A stretch of 64,000 bases of DNA from Rhodanobacteraceae bacterium (lineage in GTDB: Bacteria > Pseudomonadota > Gammaproteobacteria > Xanthomonadales > Rhodanobacteraceae), in the NCBI GenBank assembly GCA_004299705.1, contig SCQS01000014.1, positions 1 to 64,000 of the forward strand, given 5' to 3'. Of the stretch, positions 6,806-59,680 are shown piece after piece (positions within the stretch are counted from its first letter, which is position 1; every line of letters begins with the position of its first letter). The translations under genes were made by a program, and so were the position numbers. The notes under the pieces are model-generated. The model ran no database searches, was not told the DNA's origin, and saw only the letters and a program-made list of their open reading frames with translations.

Positions 6806-7111
6806 ATGGCAAAGAAATCGATGGTGAACCGCGACCTGAAGCGGGCCAAGCTGATCAAGCGGCACGCCGGCAAGCGCGTCGACCTGAAGAAGATCATCGC
6901 AAGCGCCGATGCGAGCTACGACGAAAAGATGGCTGCCGCGGCCAAGCTGCAGAAGCTGCCGCGCGACTCCAGCCCGTCGCGCCTGCGCACCCGCTGCGCG
7001 CTGACCGGTCGTCCGCGCGCCGTGTACGCGAAGTTCGGCCTGTCCCGCAGCAAGTTGCGCGAAGCAACCATGCGCGGCGACGTGCCGGGCCTGCGCAAGG
7101 CTTCTTGGTAA
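6806..7111 (+). CDS. rpsN: 30S ribosomal protein S14
   Basis: The protein has 101 residues and starts [13 protein letters not shown]. It is the long, zinc-free type of S14: there is no CxxC pair, and it has the full N-terminal extension. The [21 protein letters not shown] core and [22 protein letters not shown] end are canonical. The start at 6806 is preferred to an in-frame upstream codon inside the gap. Confidence 0.98.
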
Positions 7112-7124
7112 CGCAAAAGCAAAA

Positions 7125-7223
7125 TGGATTACAAAGTCCATCCATGGACTTTGCCGCAAGGGCCGGCCTTCGGCCGTTCAAATTCGTTCCAGACGAATTT
7201 GTCCGGCTTTCGCCGGAATGACG
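7125..7223. repeat. Cluster of short perfect palindromes after rpsN
   Basis: Three stems follow one another: CAAAGTCCAT-cc-ATGGACTTTG (7132-7153), an AAATTCGT/ACGAATTT stem (about 7180-7200), and CCGGC-ttt-CGCCGG followed by GGAATGACG. The last phrase recurs in longer intergenic palindromes at 36.3 kb and 52.7 kb. No open frame here is plausible. The cluster occupies part of the 300-base gap between rpsN and rpsH. Confidence 0.6.
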
Positions 7224-54548: not shown

Positions 54549-54600
54549 TGGCGACCCCGGCCCGATTCGAACGGGCGACCTTCCCCTTAGGAGGGGAAAG
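54549..54600 (-). tRNA. tRNA-Arg(CCT) 3' fragment (attachment-site repeat)
   Basis: Read on the minus strand, the sequence contains an anticodon stem-loop TTCCC-CTCCTAA-GGGGA (anticodon CCT), a T arm GCCCG-TTCGAAT-CGGGC, an acceptor half CGGGGTC, a discriminator G and CCA. The D arm and 5' acceptor are missing: upstream (above 54,600) the sequence is unrelated and AT-richer. It is therefore only the 3' part, as left when an integrase uses a tRNA 3' end as attB and the intact gene is rebuilt at the other end of the island. Confidence 0.8.
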
Positions 54601-54831: not shown

Positions 54832-56931
54832 CTATGGCATCAATGCGAGCAAGGCGGCATAGGCAGTGCGAAGTTTGGCCACGAGTTGGTTACGTTCCTG
54901 CGCTTTCAAGTGCTGCGTCCGAGCCGCTGTCTTTTGCTCGTAAGGATGCGATACGGGCAGACGGTTCCGGCGTGCGTTCATCTGTCGGAAGCAGTTTCCG
55001 ATCGATGGGCACTGCGTCGAGAATGGTCCATGTGGGTCGAGCGTCACCCCGAACTTCAGCAACTGCCCCTTCTTATCAGTGGTGCTGCATGCACTAGGGT
55101 GTCCAATTGCAGCGAGATGTCGCTGCAGCGCGAGGTACACCGTTTGGTTAAATGAGTTTTGGCATGCCAGCCAAAACGAGCGGCCGCTGTCGAAGGTTGC
55201 CTCTGCTTGCTTCAGAAGGCCGAGGCCGTGAACGTACTCCGAACTCAAAAGCGTGTGCCATGACTTGTTGCGAAGTATGCCGTAGCGGCGTTCGAGGATT
55301 TCGCCGATTGGGTCGAGCCGCGACCGCCGTCCGCGCACCACCCCTAGCTCCCGTAACGTGCTTGCAACTTGCGAGGGTAGCTGGTCGACCGTCAGCCCGA
55401 GCGAGGACGGTAGGAGCCCACGCGCTTGTAGCGTGGAACAGACCGAAAGCCCGGGTTCGGGCGCATGTCGCCGAAGGAACGCCTCGGCGGCTTCCCCGCC
55501 GGCGTAAGCAGTATCAGGAAGAACGGGTGCCAGAACGGACTGGACCAGTGGCGGCTGGTGTTTCACCCAGCGACTCAGATGCTGTCCGGTCACATCTTCC
55601 GAAATACACAGAAAATGGCAGGCGCCCCATCGTTCGACGAAATTGTCACGTGTCTTGTCCTTCGCAATCGTAACTGCAAGCTCAGTTAGCGTTCGCGCCG
55701 CGGCTGTGGTGCCTGACTTGGCGCTACGGCGGTACTTTGCCAAAATGTGCCATGCTTCACCACGAACGTATGCGTATGGATTGCGGCGCACCAGATCCAG
55801 GCAAACACGCTCTATCGGTTTGCGGTAGGCGAATCGAGAAATGTAAGTGAAGAACACGTCCGTGTGTTCGGGGTGGTGTGGGATCAGCCGGAGCACGAGG
55901 CTCAGGAGCTTCGAGTCAGGCTCAGCCCTGTAAAGAACGAATCGCAGTCTCGTTTTGTCTATCACGCGATAAGGCTTGCCGCCGATTGCGTGCGCAATCG
56001 CAAAATAGGCGCGTGGCCCGCCCATCTTTTCGGTGTCGGTGCCTTCGTGATGCGGCTCGGTGATACTGGGAAGTCTGCCCAACGCCTCGCGTACACTTTG
56101 AGCACGTTTGATCGCAAATTTTCCAGCCTGGGGAATGAGCCCTCGCTCTCTACAGTGGCGCTCCAGTTCGATGAGATGCGCACGAACCTCATCGGCAGTG
56201 GCGCCGAATAACCGCACATCGTCGACGTACCGGGTGTAGCCACGACGTCTTCGCATCGCAAGGTCAATCGGGAGGAGGAAGCATTCGGCCAAGTAATCCG
56301 AAGCAAGTGGGCCCTGTGGCAGGCCGTGACCGTGACCCGATGCCGCGTGATGAGAGCTCCATGTTTTCAAGCAAGACCTGATCAGGTCAAGAGCTGGGCT
56401 GGCCGCACGCGGATAAATTGTTCTGATCAGAAGTTCGTGCGAGATCGTGTCGTAGAACGCAGCAAGGTCGAAATCACCAACCCATCGCATTCCGCCCACG
56501 TAGTGCTTCTCGATCCTTCGTTGGAACGCTGTGTAGGTGGTTTGCCACCGCCTGAAAAAGAAGATGTTGTCCGATTCTTGGAGTAAATTGCTGAAGATGA
56601 TTTTGGACTGCAAAGGCGCGCGCTTTCTTTGTAATCGTTGCGCGGCAAGATTTGCGAATGCCTGCAGGACCACCTGATCTTCAATGCCAAGGAGCGCGAG
56701 CGGGCGGTGCAGGCCAGAGGGTTTCGGTACATAGATGCGCTCTGGGTGTCGTGGCGTGAAGGTACCGGCAAGCAATCGTTGCCGCAGGTCCCTCAAGTTT
56801 TGATCGAGCGCGACTTCGTACGCGTAATAGACATCCCGGTACAGTCGCTTGTACTGGTAGTTGCCCCCTGTCGTGATCCGCCGCCATGCCAATTCGAGGT
56901 TCTGCTTGCTGCCAAGCCGACCGATCTTCAT
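54832..56931 (-). CDS. Reverse transcriptase with C-terminal HEPN-like segment (AbiA-like defence candidate)
   Basis: The protein has 699 residues. The RT domain (about 30-300) has motif A GDFDLAAFYDTI (Asp155), motif B GHGLPQGPLASDYLAE (about 202-216) and motif C RYVDDVRLFG with YVDD at 235-238, so the catalytic residues are intact. A long helical middle (about 330-600) looks repeat-like. Near the end, RRNRLPVSHPYE (Arg655-Asn656 to His662) fits the HEPN RNase pattern Rx4-6H. RT plus helical region plus HEPN is the layout described for AbiA-type abortive-infection proteins. It stands alone at the edge of the island; no retron-type RNA was identified. Confidence 0.82.
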   Translation of the reverse strand: MKIGRLGSKQNLELAWRRITTGGNYQYKRLYRDVYYAYEVALDQNLRDLRQRLLAGTFTPRHPERIYVPKPSGLHRPLALLGIEDQVVLQAFANLAAQRLQRKRAPLQSKIIFSNLLQESDNIFFFRRWQTTYTAFQRRIEKHYVGGMRWVGDFDLAAFYDTISHELLIRTIYPRAASPALDLIRSCLKTWSSHHAASGHGHGLPQGPLASDYLAECFLLPIDLAMRRRRGYTRYVDDVRLFGATADEVRAHLIELERHCRERGLIPQAGKFAIKRAQSVREALGRLPSITEPHHEGTDTEKMGGPRAYFAIAHAIGGKPYRVIDKTRLRFVLYRAEPDSKLLSLVLRLIPHHPEHTDVFFTYISRFAYRKPIERVCLDLVRRNPYAYVRGEAWHILAKYRRSAKSGTTAAARTLTELAVTIAKDKTRDNFVERWGACHFLCISEDVTGQHLSRWVKHQPPLVQSVLAPVLPDTAYAGGEAAEAFLRRHAPEPGLSVCSTLQARGLLPSSLGLTVDQLPSQVASTLRELGVVRGRRSRLDPIGEILERRYGILRNKSWHTLLSSEYVHGLGLLKQAEATFDSGRSFWLACQNSFNQTVYLALQRHLAAIGHPSACSTTDKKGQLLKFGVTLDPHGPFSTQCPSIGNCFRQMNARRNRLPVSHPYEQKTAARTQHLKAQERNQLVAKLRTAYAALLALMP

Positions 56932-57338
56932 TGTTCACCCCCCCCGCTGCGCCGCGCCCGTGCCTGCAGACTCCCCGCGCGCAATTTACCGGTTTGCGCA
57001 TTGCGTCGGCCCCTGCAAAGGTAACATTCTTGGACGAGCGATGTTCTCATGCCAAGAGGCCGAACCAAGTCTGCGATCACCCGAAGCGGATATCTCGTGC
57101 ATGAATCAGGCCCCGCTGCATGGTGCCTGCATCTTCAGGGAAGGAAGGCCGATGACACGGAGCGAGGGCTGAGCGTGTGCTGCACAGCGAAACGTCGACG
57201 GCAACCTATTCAGCCAATGAACCGAGTTGCGCGGTCACTGCCGATGGCTTCGCGTCGATACCCATGATTTCTCGTGCCCACTCGAAGATCAGGCGCAATT
57301 GGATGCTCGTCCAATTTATTCAGTGAGGCATGCCCGGC
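56932..57338. other. Gap of about 400 bases between divergent RT and HNH-pair genes
   Basis: There is no plausible gene. It must contain the divergent promoters for the RT and the HNH pair. The only structure I can point to is a stem AATTGGA-tgctcg-TCCAATT (57,297-57,316) about 22 bases before the downstream start. A small non-coding RNA, as seen with some defence RTs, cannot be excluded by eye. Confidence 0.4.
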
Positions 57339-58505
57339 ATGAGTGATCCACGCACTGAGACGTATCATCTGGATTTCGAGACCGAACCGCTCACGCAGAT
57401 CGACGATCTGGCCTCGCTCGCGGCACAGACCTACAACCTGGGTGACCATGGCCGCTGGTTCTTGTGCTTCCGGCAAGGGTGCCAAGGCTTCCATGTACGC
57501 CTGTTTGCAGTCGAAACGCATTATGCGCAATTGCACGCGTGGCAATTGCGGCGCCGGTGGCATCTGGAGCCGGAGTATCACTTGGCGTCGATTGTGTTTG
57601 GGATGGATTCGGCATTGGAGTGCCTGCTCTATGCGATGAACGCGCTCGGGTACGGTGTTTGCCCGGAGGAGTTCGTCGACATCACTACGGATAAGGGGCT
57701 GCGCTCGATCTCGCCATGGCTGATCCTCGGAAGTTCCAATCGCCACCCCGACCCCGCGTTCGAGAGGCACTATCCCAACGTCGTTGCCGTTTGGCGACGG
57801 CATAGGGGCGTCATTGAAGAGATCCAGCGTCAGCACGACGTTTCCAAGCATCGATCATCGACTTACCGGGGTGGACGTTCCCGCAACGATCCACCCCCTG
57901 GTTTTTACGCCGCACTTGGAGTGTCCGACGATGACCCCAGTCGATCTGACTTCTCGCCGATGGCCGAGATCATTCTCGACCCCGATCTCAAGCGGCCGAT
58001 GTCGGCACCACGGGCCAACGTGAAGTACGAAGACCTGCGGACGCTAGAAGGCGTGTGTCGCGAATTCGTCATGTTGGTCGAACAGGCCTGCGTGGCGTGG
58101 TTGAGCGACGCGCGGCAAATGGTCAAGTTGAACCACGGCGTGCCACTCGCGCGCTACGTAGTGGTGGGACGCGCAGGGGTAACGCTGTTCCAGGACGCTG
58201 AATGCCAGCAACCCATCGCGGACATCCAAGGGATCCGTATGGACTGGGGACATGTTGGTTACCCGCCTGAGCCAGGTCGGATCGTCGCGGCCTGTGCGAC
58301 GATTACATACCGCATAGGAGACGCACTACCGTTATCGGGAACATACGATTATGCGCGGCGCATCGGCCCAGCTTGGTATCGGGATCCGGACGATGGCCAA
58401 ATCGTGCAGGCTTGGTCGAGCTCCGCCGTCCTTGTCTCACCCTCGATGAGCCCAGTGCGGGATAAGCCGGAATGCATGTCGGGTCCAGCTAGGGGAAAGA
58501 TGTGA
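57339..58505 (+). CDS. Hypothetical protein coupled to an HNH nuclease
   Basis: The protein has 388 residues; no signal or membrane segment is evident. I do not recognise a named family. Striking segments are FGMDSALECLLYAMNALGYG (about 85-105) and the motif IQRQHDVSKHRSSTYRGG (about 165-180), which resembles the R/H-rich ends of some HEPN-like helical domains; this link is weak. The last part is beta-rich. ATG 57339 has GAGG upstream; an earlier ATG at 57,330 is possible. Its stop overlaps the GTG of the HNH gene (GTGA). Confidence 0.75.
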   Translation: MSDPRTETYHLDFETEPLTQIDDLASLAAQTYNLGDHGRWFLCFRQGCQGFHVRLFAVETHYAQLHAWQLRRRWHLEPEYHLASIVFGMDSALECLLYAMNALGYGVCPEEFVDITTDKGLRSISPWLILGSSNRHPDPAFERHYPNVVAVWRRHRGVIEEIQRQHDVSKHRSSTYRGGRSRNDPPPGFYAALGVSDDDPSRSDFSPMAEIILDPDLKRPMSAPRANVKYEDLRTLEGVCREFVMLVEQACVAWLSDARQMVKLNHGVPLARYVVVGRAGVTLFQDAECQQPIADIQGIRMDWGHVGYPPEPGRIVAACATITYRIGDALPLSGTYDYARRIGPAWYRDPDDGQIVQAWSSSAVLVSPSMSPVRDKPECMSGPARGKM

Positions 58506-59680
58506 CCGATACGTTCGCGTGCTTGTACTGCGGCTATCCGTACCCCACTGAGCAATCCACGCTAGAACATGCCATCCCTCAATCGCTGGGTGGTGCACTC
58601 GCGCCTGATCGATTCAAGCTCCACAACGTTTGTAAGAAGTGCAACAACGATCTGGGAGCGTACGTGGACGCCTCTTTCGCCAAAAGCTGGTTCGTCACCA
58701 ACGGATTAGCAACGGCGGCCCACAAGCTCTATGCCAGCGTGGACGACGCTCCGCTGCCCTTGACCTGTATGGGGCCAATCGACTTTGCCGACCTTGCCGT
58801 GCCAGAGGGTTGCCTTGCCGAGCTCTGGCTTGGTCCTTCGGGCGAAAGCATGTTCTGGCTTCGCCCCAAGGACGAAATGCTTTACTGGTATTCAGGCGGC
58901 AATCCACGCCATCGTGCAGAGCCGTCAACGGTGTACTGGTTTCCGACCTCCGCGGACCCAACACGGCTGAAGATCGGATCGGACAGCCTCTTTTCCGCTT
59001 TCAAGAAGCGAAAGAATGCACGCAAGGTGATGGGCGTTGCCTGTCATGGATTTCCAGGAAATGGGTATCCACCTGGATTTGATGTACCGGACGGAACGGA
59101 TATGGCCAACGTTGTCGCTATCCAGGCGCAAATGGAAGGCTTCCATTGTCGGGTACCGTTTAATCTTCAATTTGACACCCGATTTATTTGCAAACTGGCG
59201 CTCGGTGTGGGCTATAGCTTGTTTGGCGACGCGTTCGCATCCACGGAGAATGCAAAGGAACTTAGGAAAGGATGTTGGCCGAAGAACCAGACACAGATTG
59301 GAGTGCGAGGCGTTCCGATGTTCGGCAGCAAGGATCCTGTGCTGGAACGATTTATGGGCTATCCAGGTGCAGTGGTCCTGGTGGTTACGTCGACCATAGA
59401 CGGTTTTGTGCTGATGATGACCATTGATGAGGGCAAGCCATTCATTGTGGGACTTGCGCCTGCGTCGCTCTGCAGTTCAGCAGTTACCCCAGAAGGCTAT
59501 GCACTGCTTCTCTTCCCCTCGATCCGGCGGTGTGTCGAGATGACGTTTGTTGAATTAGTTGGGCACCACGATCGCTCTTGGCCGCACCGTTCCTTGGCTG
59601 AAATCGACGTGCAGCTAGCTCGTTCCGCCAAATTCTGGTCAACGCTTGCGAGGTTGCCGACGCGTTCGTCGGAATCGTAA
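58502..59680 (+). CDS. HNH-endonuclease-domain protein
   Basis: The protein has 392 residues. The N-terminal HNH/zinc domain shows CLYCGYPYP (Cys7, Cys10), LEHAIPQSLGG (His23) and HNVCKKCNNDLG (Asn42, Cys44, Cys47, Asn48), an intact metal-finger nuclease motif of the HNH_5 kind. The remaining ~340 residues are unrecognised and may recognise the target. Translation starts with GTG in an overlap with the upstream gene, after AGGGGA. The pair looks like one two-gene unit; a role in defence is inferred from its neighbours. Confidence 0.85.
   Translation: MTDTFACLYCGYPYPTEQSTLEHAIPQSLGGALAPDRFKLHNVCKKCNNDLGAYVDASFAKSWFVTNGLATAAHKLYASVDDAPLPLTCMGPIDFADLAVPEGCLAELWLGPSGESMFWLRPKDEMLYWYSGGNPRHRAEPSTVYWFPTSADPTRLKIGSDSLFSAFKKRKNARKVMGVACHGFPGNGYPPGFDVPDGTDMANVVAIQAQMEGFHCRVPFNLQFDTRFICKLALGVGYSLFGDAFASTENAKELRKGCWPKNQTQIGVRGVPMFGSKDPVLERFMGYPGAVVLVVTSTIDGFVLMMTIDEGKPFIVGLAPASLCSSAVTPEGYALLLFPSIRRCVEMTFVELVGHHDRSWPHRSLAEIDVQLARSAKFWSTLARLPTRSSES

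Follow-up and report, generated by a model that had tools for sequence, protein, structure and literature searches.

The reverse transcriptase gene and its conservation

This study analyzed a reverse transcriptase (RT) gene at positions 54832..56931 on the reverse strand of a 64-kb stretch of DNA, hereafter referred to as the window. The open reading frame (ORF) runs from an ATG, which a purine-rich stretch precedes, to a stop codon without an internal stop, and its 699-aa translation indicates a UG19-type defence-associated RT (PADLOC RT_UG19, E=3.9e-153). Searching Pfam identified RVT_1 (E=4.7e-14, residues 119-275) as the sole family at E<=0.1. On the basis of this match and the residues invariant in UG19, the RT fingers and palm were assigned to residues 1-285, a boundary that is approximate (56077..56931, reverse strand).

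A position scan located DFD from residue 153, which places Asp155 of motif A at 56467..56469 in agreement with the UG19 alignment, as well as QGPL at 206, the YVDD of motif C at 235-238 (56218..56229), and RNRLPVSH, an R-x6-H motif, at 655-662 (54946..54969), all on the reverse strand. The sequence RYVDD was invariant in all seven UG19 rows covering the site. The scan thus confirmed both the intact RT motifs A and C and the terminal RN...H motif described in the initial annotation. We then modelled the full-length protein with AlphaFold2 from 14 rows, several of which were fragments (mean pLDDT 77.9, pTM 0.80). The model comprised the RT domain, a run of helices at approximately residues 304-555, and terminal helices at 558-578, 584-608, 642-655, and 677-697; the pLDDT was below 50 at residues 661-671. 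The middle portion, predicted to be an alpha-helical, solenoid-like region (55267..56022, reverse strand; boundary approximate), agrees with the long helical region noted earlier, and residues 556-699 (54835..55266, reverse strand) constitute the putative HEPN-like domain.

To assess selection on the gene, we compared it with its Nitrospirales relative. The identity was 65% across residues 1-557 and 71% across residues 559-699, and dN was 0.20 in the RT part, 0.39 in the helical part, and 0.21 in the C-terminal part; dS was saturated and therefore not computable. These values reveal that the RT gene is a conserved gene rather than a chance ORF and show that it is under purifying selection. Because the dN of the tail is close to that of the RT, the C-terminal tail appears to be constrained about as much as the RT core.

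The island, its tRNA junction, and the gene neighborhood

The end of the RT ORF is separated by 235 bases from a piece of tRNA-Arg(CCT) at 54549..54596 on the reverse strand. This piece, which forms the left junction of an island, comprises the 3' part of the tRNA (nt 30-77), and its 48 nt are identical to the tRNA of the same-genus genome G1418, where tRNA-Arg(CCT) is intact and adjoins the same aldehyde dehydrogenase gene. ARAGORN detected no tRNA in the 64-kb window. The 5' 41 nt were found at 7096-7137 of another contig of the window's genome, C57, with 95% identity, where the adjoining sequence is collinear with that of G1418. The 3' and 5' pieces have 12 nt in common, at the anticodon loop. 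Contig C57 (7096-8356) also carries a different intact tRNA-Arg(CCT), which lies approximately 1.1 kb inward of the far junction and apparently replaces the split host tRNA. These findings place the RT gene at the border of an integrative island that split the host tRNA-Arg(CCT), which bears out the suggestion of a tRNA island edge. The G+C content per kb changes at 54 kb, from 0.61-0.69 on the left to 0.55-0.62 on the right. Beyond the window, the contig carries Tn7-like TnsA/TnsB/TniB(TnsC)/TniQ genes to the right of the RT (L004:13116-17624, contig approximately 67.1-71.6 kb) and a 207-aa phage-integrase-family ORF. The RT might conceivably be cargo of such a Tn7-like element.

The nearest genes form a two-gene unit at 57330-59680, in which the gene of a 391-aa protein without a Pfam family overlaps by 4 nt that of a 392-aa HNH_5 protein with a weak PADLOC match to PDC-M01B (8.6e-6). 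Except for this HNH gene, two genes on, Pfam and PADLOC revealed no recognised defence gene next to the RT. When 13 stretches carrying UG19 genes were searched by tblastn, nine neighboring proteins had no match at E<=0.01, and the RT itself, serving as the control, was found. None of the nine is therefore common to these loci and the window, in keeping with the proposal of the initial annotation that the RT needs no visible partner gene. Elsewhere, the UG19 RT of genome G1158 (L014) resides in a type I restriction-modification (RM) operon (L025:7423-13988) in the order HsdM, a 161-aa ORF, HsdS, RT, Fic, and HsdR, with the RT and HsdS genes overlapping by 8 nt. At another UG19 locus, the gene just upstream of the RT (L039:3164-4621) contains a TnsA-like nuclease stretch (E=8.6e-5, below the cut-off) and ends in RNNYVAH, a further HEPN-like motif of its own.

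We also considered whether the RT acts on a neighboring non-coding RNA template, as do class 2 DRT2, DRT9, and DRT10. The interval of approximately 400 nt between the RT start and the divergent gene at 57330 would leave room for such an RNA. However, the 300 nt upstream of the RT folded no better than shuffled sequences (z=0.60), no Rfam family reached its gathering score across contig positions 54000-72000, and the flanks shared no DNA similarity with the 13 UG19 stretches except for one 17-base match (E=0.56). The fusion of the RT to a long helical region is, moreover, the class 1 layout, according to the excerpt available of a published description (PMC12489045). An RNA-templated system of this type is thus quite unlikely.

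Group assignment and distribution

The PADLOC profile RT_UG19 matched the window RT with 509.5 bits (E=3.9e-153), aligning residues 5-696 with profile positions 5-559 of 562; the runner-up was UG21, with 167 bits (E=2e-49). Five relatives, scanned in full or in part and not including L041, likewise had UG19 as their best group. The UG/Abi classes themselves were reportedly defined by Mestre et al. in 2022. In a tree of 15 RT domains, the window RT and its Nitrospirales relative (L002) formed a pair with support of 100/99, which joined L017 and L039 with support of 90/95. The fork holding all UG19 rows (88/87) also includes the long-branch row L013, which we retained in the tree but did not count as UG19.

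The initial annotation had read the protein as AbiA-like, and membership in AbiA itself was not supported. The NCBIfam model abortive_AbiA (TIGR04499), with a cut-off of 250, scored 11.5 bits (E=0.09) and covered residues 69-227 only. The Pfam model of the AbiA C-terminal domain, HEPN_AbiA_CTD (PF18732), was silent on six UG19 C-termini at E<=10 and, at the same threshold, matched none of seven UG19-bearing genomes, the window's genome included. Its one match in 219 genomes (G116, E=9e-4, below the cut-off) lay in a frame that reads as chemotaxis-receptor-like and was dropped. Searches for an AbiA protein usable in a profile-to-profile comparison did not find one in the genomes covered, and one of them returned no match at all.

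The other NCBIfam models also remained below their cut-offs, namely group II maturase (group_II_RT_mat, 93.9 bits against 300), Drt3a (41.7 against 200), Drt4 (26.9 against 450), retron_St85_RT (18.3 against 235, a result that concerns the St85 type only), and Drt2 (12.8 against 390). Neither a group II intron RT nor a retron St85 RT was therefore indicated, and the protein groups with the UG19 rows in the tree. When a profile of 14 UG19 and UG21 rows was searched against the PDB, the best matches, confined to the RT domain, were to structures of group II intron RTs (5hhl, E=2.8e-28), as expected of an RT core. Because the UG19 match spans the full length and the AbiA score falls far below its cut-off, we consider the protein a UG19 defence-RT candidate and not an AbiA protein. 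On its sequence, the window RT is a member of UG19, a group already catalogued in PADLOC (RT_UG19, PDLC03756), which upholds the defence-type RT of the initial annotation. The literature search found no report testing a UG19 member, for phage defence or otherwise, and the term RT_UG19 was absent from the literature searched; in the portion available of the myRT paper, UG19 is mentioned once, in a table (PMC8934634).

UG19 is rare among the sampled genomes. The UG19 profile matched 1 of 398 genomes in the phylum sample at E<=1e-60 and 1 of 398 in the order sample at E<=1e-50. The single match was each time the window's own genome, and the two samples have some genomes in common. In the sample from Nitrospirota, the phylum of the Nitrospirales relative, 10 of 245 genomes matched at E<=1e-40. 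Five of these are UG19 (G786, by its 508.7 bits in this search, and G1158, G1188, G1305, and G1161, by PADLOC) and five are UG21 by PADLOC (L019-L023). Four of the UG21 RTs (L019, L020, L021, and L022) adjoin or overlap genes whose sequences suggest HsdS or N6-methylase. An order search matched 6 of 176 genomes, comprising four already known, G1388 (UG19 by PADLOC), and G1384 (left unclassified). Six exact peptide patterns, scanned against genome contigs, retrieved one relative in a Nitrospirales MAG and another in a Labilithrix MAG, and 1 of 282 genomes matched in the phylum sample of the latter (the long-branch L013). The window RT is 65-71% identical to the nearest UG19 found and 23-33% identical to three other unbroken UG19 proteins.

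The mobile elements yielded no comparable copy. In tblastn searches with the window RT, none of 4288 matched plasmid records and none of nine matched phage records had a single site that covered 80% of the query, and the same applied to 4685 plasmid records matched by the UG19 protein L039. Many among the 40 plasmid records listed for the window RT were annotated as group II intron RTs. The viral contigs contained no relative of four UG19 queries and no match to two motif patterns.

Several UG19 copies are broken. The Nitrospirales copy (L002:6342-8435) has a single in-frame TGA at the position of the window's Trp558, another copy has nine internal stops, and a third is internally deleted and truncated. 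Such copies, together with a negative Foldseek search on the isolated tail (described below), would fit an RT without a defence role, either decaying or domesticated by its host, with an unrelated helical tail in which the conservation of Arg and His is structural. We regard this explanation as very unlikely, given that the window copy is intact, that dS is saturated and dN low against a relative in another phylum, and that the patchy cross-phylum spread and the island and RM contexts are those expected of defence genes.

The C-terminal tail and the proposed mechanism

Matches to R-x(4-6)-H begin at nine positions within the window RT, and the motif alone therefore proves nothing. We consequently relied on an alignment of seven UG19 tails, namely those of the window RT (P0001), L002b, L014, L015, L024, L039, and L017b. 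Four of the 144 columns were invariant (G628, L631, R655, and H662), so that the Arg and His of the R-x6-H motif were retained in all seven C-termini. The 21 pairwise identities were 16-37%, apart from two closely related pairs (59% and 71%), and the five divergent tails were 16-28% identical to that of the window RT. The divergent motifs keep little besides Arg and His (e.g., RLESDLSH and RLLSITAH). The window RT thus shares both the RT motifs and the R-x6-H tail with the other UG19 RTs. The UG21 RTs, the next-best group, differ in this respect; five UG21 proteins have no R-x4-6-H at one common C-terminal place, and in their last 140 residues the motif occurred at scattered places in three and was absent in two.

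Modelled alone from six rows, the tail reached a pLDDT of 82.6 and a pTM of 0.79, with a beta-hairpin at 612-631. Foldseek returned no match for the isolated tail at E<=0.001 in either the PDB or BFVD (142 PDB and 245 viral matches at E<=10), and no HEPN protein appeared among the 50 PDB names listed. Pfam and NCBIfam searches of six UG19 C-termini and PDB sequence searches with the UG19 tail did not find HEPN either. For the HEPN fold that the initial annotation proposed to look for at the C-terminus, the models thus gave terminal helices but the searches gave no fold or family match. Because the defence RT ends in a domain that is mostly helical and contains an invariant R-x6-H motif, HEPN is the best reading, and the tail is likely a HEPN domain, as judged from alignment and model.

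In the layout of an RT followed by a helical domain and a C-terminal R-x6-H domain, UG19 resembles AbiA of Lactococcus (PDB 8oz7), with which it also shares RYVDD. According to the parts available of the AbiA study (PMC11077055), AbiA carries RNSNPVSH at 581-588, identical to the window motif at 6 of 8 positions; since divergent UG19 proteins keep little beyond Arg and His, this closeness may be partly due to chance. In Foldseek, the full-length model had 75 PDB matches at E<=0.001, headed by a group II-like RT (G2L4), the GsI-IIC RT, and DRT6; DRT4 ranked sixth. AbiA (8oz7_B) ranked 50th (2.5e-5, TM 0.34-0.39, rmsd 22.9), below AbiK, Abi-P2, DRT4, DRT6, and DRT9; the same excerpt states that AbiK and Abi-P2 lack a HEPN domain (PMC11077055).

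AbiA is described in that excerpt as synthesizing untemplated, protein-primed DNA from Tyr298 or Tyr303, in a loop at 290-310 linking the RT and helical domains (PMC11077055). Its HEPN domain mediates dimerisation, and deleting the domain abolishes polymerase activity (PMC11077055). In UG19, the linker that contains these priming tyrosines in AbiA lacks a conserved Tyr. Residues 289 and 291 are Ser or Thr in all seven UG19 rows covering the linker, and Tyr27 and Tyr38 are invariant N-terminal tyrosines. By analogy with the linker priming of AbiA, these residues lead us to expect protein-primed synthesis in UG19.

We therefore favor, with somewhat better than even confidence, a single-gene UG19 DRT at the island edge that combines the RT with a helical solenoid and an HEPN-like domain and works like AbiA through protein-primed DNA synthesis. 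The RT would oligomerise, probably as a dimer through its HEPN-like domain as in AbiA. On phage infection, it would make DNA without an external primer, with one of the protein's own hydroxyl groups as the covalent primer, for which S289/T291 in the RT-helical linker or Tyr27/Tyr38 are candidates. The DNA product or the activated complex may then block phage growth, with the HEPN-like tail serving as a dimeriser, an RNase, or both. In support of this DRT reading we counted the profile, the tree, R655/H662, the resemblance of the motif to that of AbiA, S289/T291, the low dN of the tail, the relative in an RM operon, and the split-tRNA junction. Against it we counted the lack of a HEPN match in Foldseek, Pfam, NCBIfam, and the PDB, the group II RTs at the top of the PDB matches, the broken copies, the lack of recognised defence neighbors apart from the HNH gene, and the absence of a tested UG19 from the literature searched.

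Whether the tail acts as a nuclease deserves separate consideration. It may be an active RNase that DNA synthesis or the sensing of a phage switches on; the protein would then be a sensor fused to a suicide effector, in a two-step abortive infection system. Arg655 and His662 are retained without exception even in the five divergent rows, whose tails are 16-28% identical to that of the window RT, and R-x4-6-H correlates with the nuclease activity of HEPN proteins, as noted in the available text of the AbiA study (PMC11077055). The accessible part of a HEPN review lists AbiA-CTD as a HEPN domain fused to an RT and proposes RNase-mediated suicide for AbiA (PMC3710099). However, AbiA with its similar motif displayed no RNase activity in the excerpted results, and its R581A/H588A variants still defend (PMC11077055); the two residues could instead serve folding or dimer packing. 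Because the AbiA HEPN is inactive and its Arg and His are dispensable, RNase action of the UG19 tail must not be assumed, and we hold this possibility tentatively, as one with a modest chance of being correct. Of the HEPN RNase motif in the initial annotation, the R-x6-H itself stands, in 7 of 7 UG19 tails, but the RNase inference is weak. More specifically, UG19 might represent a second RT lineage, apart from AbiA, with a HEPN-like tail, priming from the Ser/Thr pair rather than from Tyr, and an active HEPN RNase controlled by DNA synthesis, a combination that we consider unlikely.

In the literature searched, AbiA alone among RT-HEPN proteins had been studied experimentally, and its HEPN motif is dispensable according to the excerpt available (PMC11077055). 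The present analysis gives UG19 a defined architecture and candidates for the priming residue. UG19 provides a second group with the AbiA layout, in which the Arg and His are nearly the sole residues kept in the tail, and would thereby offer a comparative test of HEPN as a nuclease versus a dimeriser.
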